Assembly: GCA_029972225.1 (NCBI GenBank)
Contig: CP124756.1
Coordinates: 2,276,001-2,340,000 of the forward strand
Direction: 5' to 3'
From: Candidatus Thiothrix putei
GTDB lineage: Bacteria > Pseudomonadota > Gammaproteobacteria > Thiotrichales > Thiotrichaceae
Length of the DNA stretch: 64,000 nucleotides
The position numbers and the translations under genes were made by a program. The notes beneath the pieces are model-generated. The model was not told the origin of the DNA, did not search any database, and saw only the letters and a program-made list of their open reading frames with translations. Below, piece by piece: positions 36,954 through 43,781 of the stretch (within the stretch, counting starts at the first letter, position 1; the number at the start of each line of letters is the position of its first letter).

Positions 36954-38299
36954 TTTTCAGCATTGACCGAACGCCGCATATTCAGCCGATTTTTTACTCA
37001 ATTTGACCAACGAAACCTGAGCTTTTTCAGTTTTACCGTAACTTTTGCTAAATTTCACCCATACCGATGCGACTGCTCCTGTTTTTCAGTCAGTCTTCCC
37101 GTGTTTTTTCAAACCCAGTCGCTTTATAACAAGACACGCATCAGTTGATCAGCACTCAACACCAAAATCCCAAACATCAAGTGGCTGTAAACTTTTTGCG
37201 CACCTTGCACCCACACATTCCGACCACCAAATTCATCCTTCAGGCGGGCATTGGTTCGTTCTACGGTGCTGCGAATTTTGTAACGCTCGGCATCAGCAGG
37301 TTCAAACGCTTCTTTCTGTCCGCCGCGAGGATTGTGATCAATCAGAGGGACATGCCCCAGATGACGGCTGTATTCGTGCAAATCAGCACTGCAATAGGCC
37401 GCATCCATCAGGTCGTAGAGACTGGTGACACGTTGGGCACTGATTTGAGAGAGTGGGATGGCTGCCCCGCTGTCGTGAAAGGAGGCGGAAGACAGAATGG
37501 CTGCTATCGGGACACCACAATCGGCGGTATCGATATGCAGTTTGTAGCCGTTCCAACTGTGCTTGTAGCCTTGGGCATTCTTCTTCGTCCCCCGGTTACA
37601 CTGAACCGGTATCTCATCGAGTGCTTGCTGAAGTGACTGTTCCCGTTGGCGCTGAATCCGTGTTTGCCCTTGTTTTTTCTTTGGCTTTTCCTCGGCAACA
37701 GGCCGTTCACGTGCCTCAATGGCTGTTGAATCCCGACACAGGTGGCCGATCAGCGCATCGCCCAAATACGTTTTCACCAACGTTTCATGCACACGTTCCG
37801 CTAAACGCTGTTCAGCAAATTCAGCGAAGGCACGTGAAAAGGTGGATTCGGAAGGCAGTTTCTTGGTCAGGGGAAACCCGCAGATGCGTCGCAGGGAGCG
37901 ATCGTTTTGCAGCCGGTCAATGAGTGCTCGCGTATTGACAATATTGAGCACGCTTTTGGCGACAAAAGCATTGGCAAACCAAGATCGCTCCGTCGCTGGC
38001 CGTCCAGACCCATCACGAAAAGAGCGCACAAAATCTTCAATGCGCGTCAGCTCCAGTACGTGAATGAGCTTTTCAAGCTTGGGGGTCAATGTGCCAAAGG
38101 CATCATTGAAGCAAGGCAGTATTTCAATTTGCAGCAAACTCCAGCGTTGTGCAATCAGGGCGCGTTCGGTAGAATTCATAGCGTGGGCTTAATGGTTGTT
38201 TTGATGCTTCTATTATCGCCGAAAACGGCAGCCCACACTTCTTTTTTCCTTCAGATGAAGGAAGGTTCACGCTGAAAATGTAATTTTGCAAGTGGCTCA
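36916..38299 (-). mobile_element. DDE-transposase insertion sequence of IS4/IS5 type
   Basis: About 1384 bp with 17-bp imperfect terminal inverted repeats (TGAGCGACTTGCAAAAT at 36916-36932, TGAGCCACTTGCAAAAT reading inward from 38299). A possible 4-bp duplication AATA lies at 36912-36915 and 38300-38303. The left end is present twice because of a 68-bp tandem duplication. The exact family was not determined. Confidence 0.78.
37124..38179 (-). CDS. IS4/IS5-type transposase
   Basis: A 351-aa transposase. An N-terminal helical domain (SWFANAFVAKSVLNI) is followed by the first catalytic Asp in CRDSTAIEARERP, a basic linker, YKLHIDTADCGVP, DAAYCSADL (second Asp) and RSTVERTNARLKDEFGG (Glu). Complete by length, so the element may be active. 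The left-end repeat structure is the only odd feature. Confidence 0.9.
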   Translation of the reverse strand: MNSTERALIAQRWSLLQIEILPCFNDAFGTLTPKLEKLIHVLELTRIEDFVRSFRDGSGRPATERSWFANAFVAKSVLNIVNTRALIDRLQNDRSLRRICGFPLTKKLPSESTFSRAFAEFAEQRLAERVHETLVKTYLGDALIGHLCRDSTAIEARERPVAEEKPKKKQGQTRIQRQREQSLQQALDEIPVQCNRGTKKNAQGYKHSWNGYKLHIDTADCGVPIAAILSSASFHDSGAAIPLSQISAQRVTSLYDLMDAAYCSADLHEYSRHLGHVPLIDHNPRGGQKEAFEPADAERYKIRSTVERTNARLKDEFGGRNVWVQGAQKVYSHLMFGILVLSADQLMRVLL

Positions 38300-38783: not shown

Positions 38784-41669
38784 CTACCGGTAACTATCCA
38801 CACTCGGACAAGAACACACCAAATTCCGATCCCCATACACATTATCAATCCGGTTCACGGTAGGCCAATACTTCGCCGTCGGGCTAACACCCTGCGGGAA
38901 CACCGCCTCGGTCTGGCTGTAAGGGCGTTCCCAAGCATTCACCAAATCATCCAGCGTATGCGGCGCATTCACCAGCGGATTATTGTCGAGAGGCCACACG
39001 CCCTCCTGCACCTTACGAATCTCTTCCCGAATCGCAATCATCGCATCGCAAAAACGGTCAAGCTCGGCTTTCGGCTCGGATTCGGTCGGCTCGATCATCA
39101 GCGTACCCGCCACCGGAAACGACATGGTAGGCGCGTGGAAACCGTAATCCATCAAGCGTTTAGCAATGTCCGACTCATCAATCCCCGAAGCCGCCTTCAA
39201 CGGACGAATGTCGATAATGCACTCATGCGCCACCCGCCCATTCGCCCCCCTAAACAGCACCGGATAATGCTCAGCCAAGCGTTGCATCATGTAATTGGCG
39301 TTCAAAATCGCCATCTCCGTCGCCCGCTGCAAACCCGCCGCGCCCATCAACTTAATGTACGCCCACGAAATCGGCAAAATCGCCCCGCTACCATAAGGAG
39401 CAGCCGACACCGCACTATTCCCCAGCGCAACCCCATCCGGCGGAGTCACCGCATGGCTGGACAAAAACGGTGCAAGGTGCGCCTTCACCCCAATCGGCCC
39501 CATGCCAGGGCCACCGCCGCCGTGCGGAATCGCAAAGGTCTTGTGCAAGTTCAAATGCGACACATCCGACCCCATCTTGCCCGGTTTCGACAAGCCCACT
39601 TGCGCATTCATGTTCGCGCCATCCATGTACACCTGCCCACCGAACTGATGCACAATGTCGCAAATTTCCACGATGTCCTGCTCAAACACCCCGTGCGTAG
39701 ACGGATAAGTCACCATCAAGCATGACAGGTCGTCGGCGTGTTTTTCCGCCTTGGCACGCAAATCCGCCACATCCACGTTACCGTTCGCGTCGCACTCGAC
39801 CACCACCACCTTCAGGCTCACCATCGCCGCCGAAGCCGGATTCGTGCCATGCGCCGAACTCGGAATCAAACACACATCCCGATGCCCCTGCCCAATACTC
39901 GCCTGATAACGACGGATCGCCACCAGCCCTGCGTATTCGCCCTGCGCCCCCGAATTCGGCTGCATCGAAATCGCATCATAGCCGGTGATTTCCACCAACC
40001 AATCTTCCAACTCCTTGATCATGGCGCGATAACCCACGGTCTGCTCCTGCGGCGCAAACGGGTGAATATCCGCAAACTCTGACCAAGTAACCGGCAGCAT
40101 TTCCGTGGTCGCATTCAACTTCATGGTGCAAGAACCCAACGGGATCATGCCGTGCGCCAACGAGAAATCCTTATTCTCCAAGCGCTTCAAATAGCGCAAC
40201 ATTTCTGATTCCGAATGGTGCGAATTAAACACCGGATGCGTCAGAAACGCGCTCGTGCGCTGGTAGCCGGACGGAATCCCGCTGAAACCTTCCGCGATAA
40301 CCGCAGCATCCAACGCATCCACATCCAACCCATGCCCCGCCCCCAGCAACACATCGAACAGCTCGGTGATGTCAGCGCGGGTTTTGCGCTCATCAATACT
40401 GATACCGATGTTGCCATTGTCGAACTGACGGAAATTAACGGGTATTGCCCCCTTCACCCCTTGCGGGGGAAGGGCTGGGGATGGGGGGTTGGTGACGACA
40501 GTCAGCGTATCAAACCAAGTGTCATTCAACAGTTGGACACCTTTCTGCTGCAAGCCCTTCGCCAGAATATTCGTCAACCGATGAATCCGCCCCGCAATCG
40601 TCTTCAACCCTGCCGCACCGTGATACACCGCGTAGAAGCCCGCCATATTCGCCAGCAACGCCTGCGCCGTACAAATGTTGGAAGTCGCCTTCTCACGCCG
40701 GATATGCTGTTCACGGGTCTGCATCGCCATCCGCAACGCCTGCTTGCCATGACTATCAATCGAAACCCCAATCACCCGCCCCGGCATGGTGCGCTTAAAC
40801 GCATCCTTCACCGCAAAAAACGCCGCATGAGGCCCCCCGAAACCCATTGGCACGCCGAAACGCTGCGAGTTACCGACCACAACATCCGCACCCATTTCGC
40901 CGGGAGCTTTCAACATCACCAACGCCATCAAATCCGAAGCCACACAAACCAAGGCTTTTTGCGCGTGCGCCTGTTTGATCAAGGCTTCAATATCAACGAC
41001 TTCGCCGGTGGTGCTAGGGTATTGCAGCAACACACCAAACACTTCATGCCCCGCCAACTCGCTATACGGGTTGCCGATCACCAGTTCAAACCCGAAATGT
41101 TCCGCACGGGTTTTCAGCACATCAATGGTTTGCGGATGCACGTCCTCACCCACAAAAAACTTGTCCGATTTGAGCTTGTTGGAACGCTTACACAGCGTCA
41201 TTGCTTCCGCCGCTGCGGTCGCTTCATCCAACAAGGAGGCGTTGGCAATGTCCATGCCCGTCAAATCCGTGACCATCTGCTGGTAATTGAGCAAGCCTTC
41301 CAGCCGCCCTTGGGAAATTTCCGGCTGATACGGCGTATACGCGGTGTACCAACCGGGGTTTTCCAAGACATTACGCAAAATGACCGGCGGCACAACCGTA
41401 TCGTAATAACCCATACCGATGTACGACTTAGCAACCGTGTTTTGTGCCGCCAGTGTTTTCAGGTAAGCCAGCGTTTCGGCTTCGGAACGGCTGTCGTCAA
41501 TCGCCAACGGGGCTGACAAGCGAATGCTCGCAGGCACAGTGCTGTCAATCAGCGCATCCAGCGATTCCGCACCCACGGTTTGCAGCATTGCCGCTGTGTC
41601 TGCCTCGTTGGGGCCAATGTGGCGGGCAATAAAATCATCGTGTTGTTCAAGTTCGTACAAGGTTGTCAT
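38784..41669 (-). CDS. gcvP: Glycine dehydrogenase (decarboxylating), P-protein
   Basis: A 961-aa single-chain P-protein, near the usual 950-960. It decarboxylates glycine and passes the aminomethyl group to the lipoyl arm of GcvH. The N-terminus has [14 protein letters not shown]; the PLP lysine lies in [19 protein letters not shown]. Residues about 393-408 ([16 protein letters not shown]) are an extra stretch encoded by a palindromic repeat, absent from relatives I know. The 3' 350 bp are duplicated at 33899-34248. It is the last gene of the gcv operon. Confidence 0.97.
38785..39134 (-). repeat. 350-bp direct repeat, copy 2 (gcvP 3' end)
   Basis: Nearly identical to 33899-34248 in the same orientation. 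Recombination between the copies would remove 4886 bp carrying the Fic operon and the IS, and leave one intact gcvP. Confidence 0.95.
40447..40491. repeat. Palindromic repeat inside gcvP
   Basis: CCCTTCACCCCTTGCGGGGG followed by AAGGGCTGGGGATGGGGG, the same element as at 41689-41731 and 43321-43369. Here it is translated in frame without a stop. Confidence 0.8.
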
Positions 41670-41688
41670 TTAATCGTTACCTGATCTT

Positions 41689-41731
41689 GCTCCCTTCACC
41701 CCTTGCGGGGGAAGGGTCGGGGATGGGGGAT
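41689..41731. repeat. Palindromic repeat between gcvH and gcvP
   Basis: Contains CCCTTCACCCCTTGCGGGGG and GAAGGGTCGGGGATGGGGG. It fills the 70-bp gap between gcvH and gcvP and may form an mRNA hairpin affecting relative expression. Confidence 0.8.
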
Positions 41732-41739
41732 CTTAAAAA

Positions 41740-42126
41740 TTACTCGTCACATTCCGCTTTGTATGCGTCTGCATCCATCAATTCGCCCAGCGCGTCTTCG
41801 TCATCCACGCGCATGACGAACAGCCAGCCGTCACCGTAAGGGTCGGAATTGATCAGTTCCGGCGAGTCTTGCACCGCTTCATTGCTCTCGATAATGACAC
41901 CCGGAACAGGCGCGTAAATATCAGATGCTGCCTTGACCGATTCCGCGACCGCGCAACCGTCTTCCGCACCGAATTCAGTGCCAACTTCTGGTAAATCAAC
42001 GTGTACCAAATCACCCAGCAACTCTTGCGCGTGATCAGTAATGCCGACAGTAACAGTGCCGTCGCCGTTATCACGTACCCACTCGTGGGATTTGGTGTAT
42101 TTCAAATCGGATGGAACATTGCTCAT
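41740..42126 (-). CDS. gcvH: Glycine cleavage system H-protein
   Basis: A 128-aa lipoyl carrier of the usual size, with the lipoylated Lys65 in [12 protein letters not shown] and the conserved HEWV near the N-terminus. It shuttles the aminomethyl group between GcvP and GcvT. AGGAG lies upstream of the ATG. It is 17 bp after gcvT. Confidence 0.97.
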
Positions 42127-42143: not shown

Positions 42144-43226
42144 TTAATTTAAAACAGATTTGCCATTGCGTGCGAAAACCGGCTTCACTACTTTTGCCGG
42201 GTGCAATTTGCCACGAATATCGACCTCGCAAGTCTCACCGCAGCTCGCCGGAACTCGCGCCAGCGCAATCGCTAAGCCGAGTGTAGGCGAAAATGTGCCG
42301 CTGGTGGTTTCTCCCTCACCGCCTTCACAAATAACTTTCATATGGCTGCGCAATACGCCCTTGCCTTCCAGCACCAGCCCGACGAACTTTTGCGGCACAC
42401 CAGCGGCTTTTTGAGCTTCCAACGCGCTACGCCCGATAAAGTCACGGTCTTCCGGCTGCCAACCGATTGTCCAACCCAAACCCGACACTAATGGGGAAGT
42501 GGTTTCGTCCATGTCTGTGCCGTAAAGGTTCATGCCCGCTTCCAAACGCAAGGTGTCGCGTGCGCCCAAGCCGATGGGTTTGATACCAGCGGCTAACAAC
42601 GCATCCCACACTTTGTGGGCTTGTTCGTTGGGGAACATCATTTCAAAGCCGTCTTCGCCGGTGTAGCCGGTGCGGGCAATGAACCAGTCGTTGACGAATG
42701 CGCCGTAGAAGGTTTTCAGCGGTTCAACAATAGCCACTTCATCCGCAGGCATAATACCCAGCACTTTGGCGCGTGCATTCGGGCCTTGCGCGGCAATCAT
42801 GGAAAGATCATCACGTTCGGTCAGAGTGGCATCAAAGTTGGCGATTTGCTGCTGCATCCACGCAATGTCTTTGTCGCGAGTGCCAGCATTCACCACGATG
42901 CGCCATTGGGTTTCGGTGATGAAATACACGATCAAATCGTCAATCACCGTGCCTTCGGGGGTCAACATGCAGCTATACAACGCCTTGCCGGACTCTTTCA
43001 GCTTATCAACGTTATTGGCGAGCAGGTATTGCAAAAAGGCTTTGGATTGCGCCCCCACGAGGTCGAGGATGACCATGTGCGACACATCAAACATGCCCGC
43101 GTCATTGCGGACTTGGTGGTGTTCTTGCAGTTGTGAGCCGTAGTGGATGGGCATTTCCCAGCCCGCGAAATCGACCATTTTCGCACCTGATTCAAGGTGC
43201 TTGGCGTAAAGTGCAGTACGTTGCAT
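42144..43226 (-). CDS. gcvT: Glycine cleavage system aminomethyltransferase, T-protein
   Basis: A 360-aa T-protein, near the usual length. It contains [13 protein letters not shown], the [16 protein letters not shown] segment, [11 protein letters not shown] and [17 protein letters not shown]. It transfers the methylene group to tetrahydrofolate and releases ammonia. It is the first gene after the glycine riboswitch; GGAAG precedes the ATG. Confidence 0.97.
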
Positions 43227-43251: not shown

Positions 43252-43287
43252 CAAAAAAAGGGCGGCAAGCCGCTAAGCTTGCCGCCC
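43252..43287 (-). terminator. Intrinsic terminator of the glycine riboswitch
   Basis: On the minus strand, GGGCGGCAAGC and GCTTGCCGCCC form an 11-bp perfect stem with a 6-bp loop, followed by T7. It sits between the second aptamer and gcvT, so it is the likely expression platform: glycine binding should prevent termination. Confidence 0.9.
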
Positions 43288-43524
43288 CTCTGTCCGTTTA
43301 CCTGAGAGATTCCTCAATTTACCCCCCTTCCCCGACCCTTCCCCCGCAAGGGGGGCAGGGAGGAAGAGGCAATCAAGTTACTACCCTTCGGTGAGTGCGT
43401 CCGCACTGCTCTCCAGAGTCAGATCTAGTGCTGCCAGTCCTGTTGCCTGAGCGTTTCCGGGCGGAATTGCGCCTTCGGCGGTTGCGGCAACCTTGCGGTG
43501 TGCAACGCTCTCCTGCCAGTGTTT
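43288..43524 (-). promoter_or_regulatory. Tandem glycine riboswitch (gcvT motif)
   Basis: Two aptamers on the minus strand. Aptamer 1 has GGAGAG (43508-43513), CGCCGAAGGCGCAA and CTCAGG (43446-43451) then CAACAGGACTG. Aptamer 2 has GGAGAG (43409-43414), CACCGAAGGG (around 43385-43393) and CTCAGG (43301-43306) then TAAACGGACAGAGG. The order and spacing match gcvT RNAs that bind glycine and switch on glycine cleavage. The variable stem of aptamer 2 carries a palindromic repeat. Confidence 0.95.
43321..43369. repeat. Palindromic repeat inside aptamer 2 of the glycine riboswitch
   Basis: On the minus strand CCCCTTGCGGGGGAAGGGTC followed by GGGGAAGGGGGG, of the same family as the elements at 40447 and 41689. 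It replaces the peripheral stem between the CCGAAGG and CTCAGG blocks and leaves both conserved blocks intact. Confidence 0.8.
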
Positions 43525-43781
43525 ACTGAATGCAGGGGATTGTAGCGGATGCAGTGCAGCAACTAAAGCACCATTTACGCCTGCGAGGTGAAAAGGGGGT
43601 TGCCGATTGTATCTGATGCAGTGCAACACCCCAAGCAGACTTTGGGCAAACCTTGCTTTATATCAGGAGACTCGCATAAACCCCAACGCCACCATTTATC
43701 CCTGAGCGCGGTAAGAACATAATCAAACCCTAATAAAGATACACAAACACTGACCACAGTTGGTAGGGAGAATGAGCCATC
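43525..43781. promoter_or_regulatory. Divergent intergenic region between the gcv operon and the Mrp operon
   Basis: This 257-bp stretch has no supported gene. It must hold the promoter of the gcv leader (minus) and of the Mrp/complex I-like operon (plus). I could not identify convincing -35/-10 pairs. Confidence 0.4.

Follow-up and report, generated by a model that had tools for sequence, protein, structure and literature searches.

In Candidatus Thiothrix putei, the second aptamer of the tandem glycine riboswitch located upstream of gcvT carries a 49-bp palindromic repeat in the upper part of its P3b stem. This insert is very probably a solo copy of a dispersed family, here called family A, that derives from a DUF559-encoding unit and sits in a P3b with no known partner, where the predicted fold is kept and the effect is near-neutral. 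The insert, its copies, the short stems of relatives, the anatomy of the DUF559 units and the covariation described below are read from nucleotide sequence. Our view of the insert as most probably a neutral passenger is a conclusion drawn from predicted folds, which model secondary structure without tertiary contacts.

A dispersed repeat lies in P3b of aptamer 2

We analyzed a window of 64,000 nucleotides, meaning the whole stretch of DNA examined, and give coordinates within it unless genome positions are stated. The gcv operon of Candidatus Thiothrix putei (gcvT, gcvH, gcvP) occupies its minus strand, and the closest named relatives of GcvT are those of T. caldifontis (97%) and T. fructosivorans (96%). 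The features that bear on the argument are as follows.

43425..43525 (-), aptamer 1 of the glycine riboswitch (RF00504, 58.8 bits)
43459..43464 (-), CCGCCC in the aptamer-1 P3b loop, predicted to pair with the G-tract 3′ of aptamer 2
43288..43418 (-), gcvT glycine riboswitch, aptamer 2 (CUCUGGAGAG to GGACAGAG), with its core blocks intact
43313..43377 (-), repeat-extended P3b of aptamer 2, 65 nt, predicted energy -33.0 kcal/mol
43321..43369 (+), family-A palindromic repeat copy in upper P3b of aptamer 2, 49 bp
43282..43287 (-), GGGCGG tract directly 3′ of aptamer 2, which forms the 5′ strand of the terminator and is the predicted partner in the pseudoknot
43253..43287 (-), expression platform, an intrinsic terminator consisting of a hairpin and 7 U
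42144..43226 (-), gcvT
41740..42126 (-), gcvH
41677..41730 (-), family-A copy at the gcvH-gcvP junction
38784..41669 (-), gcvP, 961 aa, with a repeat-encoded in-frame segment at aa 394-412
40435..40489 (-), family-A copy within gcvP, in frame, encoding that 19-residue segment
30411..30459 (+), weaker, B-like relative of the palindrome, read in frame within a long open reading frame (EPLTPCPSPSRGEGSKS)

Close to the 3′ end of gcvP lies an ORF (37124-38179) that we take to resemble a transposase. Upstream of the riboswitch are two 33-nt direct repeats (43538-43570 and 43605-43637; 82% alike, 67 bp apart), which are perhaps promoter or operator repeats.

The original prediction, made from the letters alone, had placed a repeat at 43321-43369 inside an aptamer 2 whose GGAGAG, CCGAAGG and CTCAGG blocks were retained, and had named two further copies in the gcv operon. 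The coordinates are right and fall inside P3b, the three blocks are intact in the sequence, and the other copies are those at the gcvH-gcvP junction and in gcvP. Its description of a palindrome of about 50 bp stands as regards a 49-bp dispersed repeat but not as regards symmetry, for the repeat forms an imperfect hairpin and not a perfect palindrome.

Aptamer 1 scores above the Rfam gathering score (58.8 bits vs 32 for RF00504), and aptamer 2 gave no RF00504 match in the Rfam scan, even at E 5. Across the gcv operons of 16 relatives (L060-L075), aptamer 2 reached the Rfam cut-off only in that of Thiofilum (L075). Because short-stem relatives are missed too, we attribute the failure to a limit of the model and not to the insert. 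Alignment and folding of 19 leaders showed that the aptamer-2 core blocks and P1, P2 and P3a are conserved in relatives.

Family A is repeated in the genome and across the genus

Matches to the 18-mer core of the repeat, allowing up to three mismatches, number four in the window vs 0.02 expected, and none of 100 shuffles reached four. A 26-mer core at the same tolerance has 28 matches genome-wide, and the reversed-pattern control has none. Our genus sample comprised 16 genomes (G000-G015), as assigned to Thiothrix by the search tool. Searched with the 18-mer at no more than one mismatch, 15 of them hold family A at 6 to 69 copies each (controls, 0), and one, G008, has no copy at that threshold. 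Copies occur in both orientations, those at the gcvH-gcvP junction and in gcvP both being opposite to the riboswitch copy, and several form inverted pairs, some of which have an outer CCGAAC...GTTCGG. At genome positions 2874516-2875392 (L010, L021, L022), four copies fall within about 0.9 kb, the first two flanking an intact DUF559 gene. An Rfam search at gathering score returned nothing around the 24 of 28 sites in the T. putei genome that were scanned, a set that omitted the gcv sites (L003, L009, L018) and L022.

Long P3b stems are derived and differ in sequence

P3b of aptamer 2 is short, at 10-25 nt, in nine of the 16 Thiothrix genomes; in the other seven it holds inserts that derive from repeats and fall into at least three types. 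T. fructosivorans has a 10-nt stem and T. caldifontis an insert. The 49-bp A-type insert is identical in G000, G003 and G012; a B-type palindrome occupies P3b in G014; and a C-type repeat (TGCCTGAGCGnAGTCGAAGG) occupies it in G005 and G010, with a long inverted C pair in G006. P3b lengths among the carriers are 65, 60, 34 and 97 nt, the last being that of G006. B and C are likewise repeated in the genomes that carry them, with five B matches in G014 and 21, 6 and 48 C matches in G005, G010 and G006, the riboswitch copy included in each count. Outgroup genera have different P3b stems of varied length. Since nine of the 16 stems are short and the other inserts differ in sequence, the long stem is derived and not ancestral.

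These comparisons bear out the original prediction that an inserted repeat extends a peripheral variable stem, given the 28 genomic copies and the short stems that it had suggested looking for in the gcvT leaders of relatives. The alternative raised alongside it, an ancestral long stem preserved by covariation, is ruled out, since three genomes share an identical long stem, and each of the remaining 13 has either a short stem or an insert of different sequence. It had also called such inserts uncommon in ligand-binding RNAs, which fails for P3b in this genus, where seven of 16 genomes carry one.

The P3b site appears to have received inserts on more than one occasion. How many insertions took place is uncertain because the gcv and rpoB trees conflict, the former being without resolution within the main clade, and because the A and B inserts could represent a single insertion that was converted later. 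Neither a target-site duplication nor a clean empty site is readable for the P3b insert, because the short stems differ in sequence.

A spacer scan extended the comparison to 110 leaders, of which 100 matched, some species being represented twice. In every leader with both aptamers detected, the aptamer-1 spacer measures 17-21 nt, except for an overlapping 241-nt match in L136, and the aptamer-2 spacer ranges over 10-135 nt across the leaders scanned; the pattern read the G006 aptamer-2 spacer as 27 nt, which is too short, since its insert contains CTCAGG. P3b is nearly absent from aptamer 2, with a 10-nt spacer, in L057, L100, L104, L105, L109, L113 and others, so P3b seems dispensable there too. 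Long P3b stems elsewhere need not be repeats: the 73-nt P3b of L114 and L118 was rejected as one, there being a single perfect copy per genome.

The insert is predicted to extend P3b and leave the aptamer fold unchanged

When aptamer 2 was folded in isolation from five leaders, the predicted arrangement was the same with or without the insert, a comparison that the original prediction had proposed, and the repeat simply continued P3b. The predicted energy of P3b is -33.0 kcal/mol here vs -2.6 to -9.9 in short stems. The mean P1 probability in isolated aptamer 2 is 0.90 with the A insert vs 0.81-0.96 in short-stem genomes, and that of P3a is 0.37 vs 0.37-0.49. In G006 the value for P3a is 0.26, and the base of P3b is paired with a probability of only 0.43. 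The letters of the closing P3b pairs change while pairing stays, with all four pairs standard in 17 of the 19 leaders.

Once the platform was included, P1 probability was 0.00 in 19 of 19 leaders, insert or none, and in the five leaders followed the terminator stem reached into the 3′ strand of P1. The free fold and the fold with P1 enforced lie 7.5 kcal/mol apart here. Two relatives with short stems give a gap of 5.6, and two further carriers of an insert give 6.9 and 9.4. These values lend no support to the suggestion, made with the original prediction, that the insert changes folding speed or tandem-aptamer contact. In the same five leaders, the terminator core hairpin still formed under enforced P1. 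With P1 at 0.00 when the platform is present and the terminator core forming despite enforced P1, the fold model therefore fails to show switching, and the persistence of the core means that P1 alone cannot explain it.

The P3b loop of aptamer 1 covaries with the terminator

The CCGCCC of the aptamer-1 P3b loop is complementary to the GGGCGG that follows aptamer 2 and forms the 5′ strand of the terminator. A pseudoknot between a P3b-loop C-tract and a G-tract after aptamer 2 is described in a passage of PMC13104608, citing Torgerson et al. Of 110 leaders, 85 were readable at both sites (54 distinct, with 24 distinct hexamer pairs), and 82 of these 85 pair at five or six of the six positions. 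Changes on both sides include CCGTCC/GGACGG, CCACTC/GAGTGG and TCGTCT/AGACGG. The paired fraction is 0.903 vs 0.855 in shuffles, with 9 of 10,000 shuffles reaching the observed value, and falls to 0.41-0.63 in shifted registers; under an alternative register rule, by which some loops are misplaced, 9 of 5,000 shuffles lay at or above the observed pairing.

Read from sequence in this way, P3b of aptamer 1 appears tied to the platform and P3b of aptamer 2 is without a known partner. The former would be the constrained one because its loop can pair with the 5′ strand of the terminator, and the lack of a known partner would explain why the latter tolerates an insert. In the gcv switches of Bacilli, too, aptamer 1 is described as more conserved than aptamer 2 in the part of PMC6944388 consulted. 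We infer that the pseudoknot may act as an antiterminator, which would give an ON switch.

Family-A repeats also lie in frame in protein-coding genes

Eight of the 28 family-A sites in the T. putei genome are read in frame in conserved proteins and fall inside matched domains or between them, the hosts by domain being NadE, CusA/AcrB-type, CobQ, CobB, 3-hydroxyacyl-CoA dehydrogenase, MutS, Lpd and GcvP. Two more sites look similar, one in a heparinase-like protein, where the insert precedes the domains, and one in a putative NtrC-like ORF. The gcvP loop at aa 394 is variable across the genus, and, judged from the peptides, A is read there in either direction. In the gcvH/gcvP gap, A is limited to some species, and G010 and G013 have different inverted repeats there. 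A second variable in-frame GcvP insert, at about aa 735-750 in the numbering of T. putei GcvP and before a ten-residue stretch, is present in G006, G007 and G014 (L070, L066, L067), with palindrome-type peptides in G006 and G014 and a tandem repeat in G007.

In the same 16 genomes, RNase P RNA (0/16) and cobalamin riboswitches (0/19) are free of internal A, B and C copies. A B-type palindrome begins a few bases 3′ of a cobalamin riboswitch in G006 (L238, G006:C116:113606-113778).

Related palindromes bracket DUF559 genes

DUF559 is a family still of unknown function in Pfam. Two family-A copies in the T. putei genome bracket a DUF559 gene that is interrupted by an ISAzo13 transposase (genome positions 2125992-2127828; L016, L017). 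PF04480 (DUF559) has 41 matches in 16 of 16 Thiothrix genomes, and 30 of the genes were analyzed. One of their products, L248, has a PRK09767 match and a weak Vsr match, both below curated cut-offs, and also matches the solved chain 3hrl, an ‘endonuclease-like protein’. A clade with the N-terminal motif RDLARNLR, assigned by eye from the alignment and including one truncated member, has inverted A copies on both sides in 11 of 11 members. Among other DUF559 genes, 1 of 19 shows the same inverted orientation and 2 of 19 show either orientation (Fisher 2e-7 for 11/11 vs 1/19). Eleven measured units, ten of this clade together with L250, have inverted repeats of 34-103 bp and total lengths of 471-616 bp. 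The outer flanks of 12 DUF559 units represent at least nine different sites, and no target-site duplication was identified in them.

A flank test that scored inverted left/right similarity at E<1e-4, independent of the A sequence, found 23 of 30 genus genes (L247-L276) and 11 of 20 plasmid ones (L277-L296) between like palindromes; 7 of 30 and 9 of 20 were without bracketing palindromes by the same test. Controls gave 0 of 61 window ORFs and 0 of 300 mock genes and, in a slightly narrower version, 0 of 16 rpoB and 0 of 36 RNA loci. Since near-palindromes match either way, this test detects like palindromes on both sides, and inversion is read for A only. The plasmid sample came from Deinococcus, cyanobacteria, Sinorhizobium and sphingomonads, and its palindromes include a cyanobacterial CCCCCTAAATCCCC type.

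Palindrome similarity and DUF559 protein similarity are correlated, with a Mantel r of 0.87 (n = 20, 0/5,000 permutations, three shared-site rows dropped) and of 0.78 over all (n = 31), values that shared ancestry inflates in part; nearest neighbors agree in only 7/20 and 12/31. Both the A and the B insert of the riboswitch match palindromes that bracket DUF559 genes better than any of 200 shuffles did, and A matches best to the RDLARNLR clade. The C-type inserts, three of the seven, show no match to DUF559 palindromes beyond shuffles, and we rejected them as DUF559 palindromes, there also being no C motif within 400 bp of the 30 DUF559 genes. Repeats thus occupy the gcvT riboswitch stem in seven of 16 genomes and are of the DUF559 type in four of these. 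The number of A copies did not rise significantly in genomes with a bracketed DUF559 gene (p = 0.16). Equally, something other than movement by DUF559 proteins, such as protection or nuclease-driven gene conversion, might explain why palindromes gather near DUF559 genes.

Comparison with known systems

The closest parallel is the gcvT riboswitch of Neisseria gonorrhoeae, which is the same RNA, has a 73-nt P3 loop in the corresponding stem of aptamer 2 and is glycine-responsive in vivo, a precedent for tolerance of a long stem, and for which a pseudoknot between a P3b poly-C and a post-aptamer poly-G is discussed, according to the portion of PMC13104608 consulted. The gonococcal platform is translational there, whereas that of Thiothrix is an intrinsic terminator; the same portion traces the gonococcal loop to no repeat, whereas the Thiothrix insert is a dispersed repeat that differs by species. 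Among the titles and opening lines of abstracts listed by a literature search, none names a repeat insert in a riboswitch, which does not establish its absence from print.

Rickettsia palindromic elements (RPEs) are palindromes found in frame inside genes and also in the structured RNA genes for tmRNA and RNase P RNA, according to passages of PMC2229807 and PMC10969869. Family A likewise inserts in frame into conserved genes (8/28 sites). RPEs differ in size, at about 150 bp in the passages of PMC10969869, and the likeness to the Thiothrix repeats drawn here is one of behavior. Thiothrix RNase P RNA, unlike that of Rickettsia, carries none of the repeats tested (0/16), and the RPE passages of PMC2229807 and PMC10969869 name neither a riboswitch host nor a partner nuclease gene.

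Units of REP/BIME repeats with RAYTs resemble the Thiothrix arrangement in being short GC-rich palindromes that form inverted pairs and bracket a small nuclease-type gene (PMC2817692, in the part consulted), and REPs read in frame appear in a passage of PMC3733652. The bracketed Thiothrix gene, however, is DUF559 (Vsr-like) and not a Y1 transposase, and inspection by eye of 12-bp flanks found no consistent GTAG/CGTC head beside the A copies listed, one L023 copy beginning with CGTC. Miniature inverted-repeat transposable elements (MITEs) share terminal inverted repeats, shorter geneless copies and larger coding relatives with our elements, and the riboswitch copy indeed matches the terminal inverted repeats of the DUF559 units. 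The differences are that the DUF559 coding relative is without a classical DDE transposase of its own, an ISAzo13 transposase interrupting one unit, and that no target-site duplication is established for the DUF559 palindrome units.

The pairing of DUF559 with palindromes, which resembles REP/RAYT units, is the most novel part of these results. In a literature search that was not word-specific, DUF559 was unnamed among the top 20 of 4,355 papers, which does not establish absence from print, and the word is absent from the repeat papers PMC12306157, PMC10969869, PMC2817692 and PMC2229807.

Proposed origin of the insert and its alternatives

We propose that a 49-bp family-A palindrome landed in, or replaced, the upper P3b of aptamer 2. 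Its RNA would fold on itself and prolong the P3b helix, leaving the glycine pocket, P1, P2 and P3a in their predicted structure, and P3b of aptamer 2 would accept it, having no known partner. The palindrome probably descends from the long terminal inverted repeats of a DUF559-encoding unit of about 0.5-0.6 kb, whose protein may mobilize the repeat, and the same kind of repeat would enter loops of GcvP, an enzyme under the control of this very riboswitch.

We think it unlikely that the insert instead tunes the riboswitch under selection, its 65-nt stem delaying completion of aptamer 2 during transcription or altering dimer contacts. Passages of PMC8991567 and PMC13104608 assign the P3 helices to the aptamer-aptamer interface, so a long P3b could matter; the identical 49-bp copy is kept in three genomes; and an insert at this one stem in seven of 16 genomes compares with 0.003-0.031 genomes expected for a 20-nt site, a crude figure from hot-spot arithmetic that is post hoc and takes genomes as independent. 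Against tuning, nine of 16 Thiothrix genomes have a short stem, and the inserts differ in sequence, length (65, 60, 34 and 97 nt) and family, so that the only property they have in common is a hairpin. The gap between free and P1-enforced folds is, moreover, similar with and without the insert in the five leaders, and the same kinds of repeat also appear in the gcvP loop and the gcvH/gcvP gap.

A different proposal is that the palindrome is kept in the operon for a function of its own as an RNase III or IHF site or an mRNA-stability element, roles that a passage of PMC2229807 describes for other small repeats. Three copies do lie in the gcv operon, all within the transcribed stretch, but copies are found in either orientation and some are read in frame as part of proteins, the gcvH/gcvP gap has a palindrome in some species only, with other inverted repeats in G010 and G013, and the riboswitch copy has no U-run after its hairpin and is therefore not a terminator; we consider this function quite improbable. 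Classical REPs are thought to be moved by RAYTs, and the REP-like size, the inverted pairs and the Y1_Tnp genes of 10 of 16 genomes might suggest a RAYT (Y1 transposase) as the mover here. Yet Y1_Tnp (PF01797) is unmatched in six of 16 genomes, including G003 and G006, the richest in copies, and 29 of 30 Y1 loci are without an A copy, the other having a weak one. With Y1 genes absent or unlinked, we rejected RAYT as the partner of the repeat and regard movement by it as very improbable. A solo, near-neutral family-A copy derived from a DUF559 unit remains our preferred reading of the insert.

A wider generalization seems to us evenly balanced between right and wrong: that a mobile partnership between DUF559 endonucleases and C-rich palindromes is widespread and works in the manner of REP/RAYT but with an unrelated enzyme, its lineage-specific palindrome variants scattering as solo copies into permissive protein and RNA loops, with the gcvT stem as the RNA counterpart.

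For the riboswitch, sister leaders that differ mainly in the aptamer-2 stem offer a natural set for asking what that stem does in a tandem switch, and the findings suggest why gcv switches have a rigid aptamer 1 and a free aptamer 2. C-rich palindromes adjoin DUF559 genes in Gamma- and Alphaproteobacteria, Deinococcus and cyanobacteria. If DUF559 proteins move these palindromes, the family would gain a role, and REP-like repeats would have a second, RAYT-independent route of spread.
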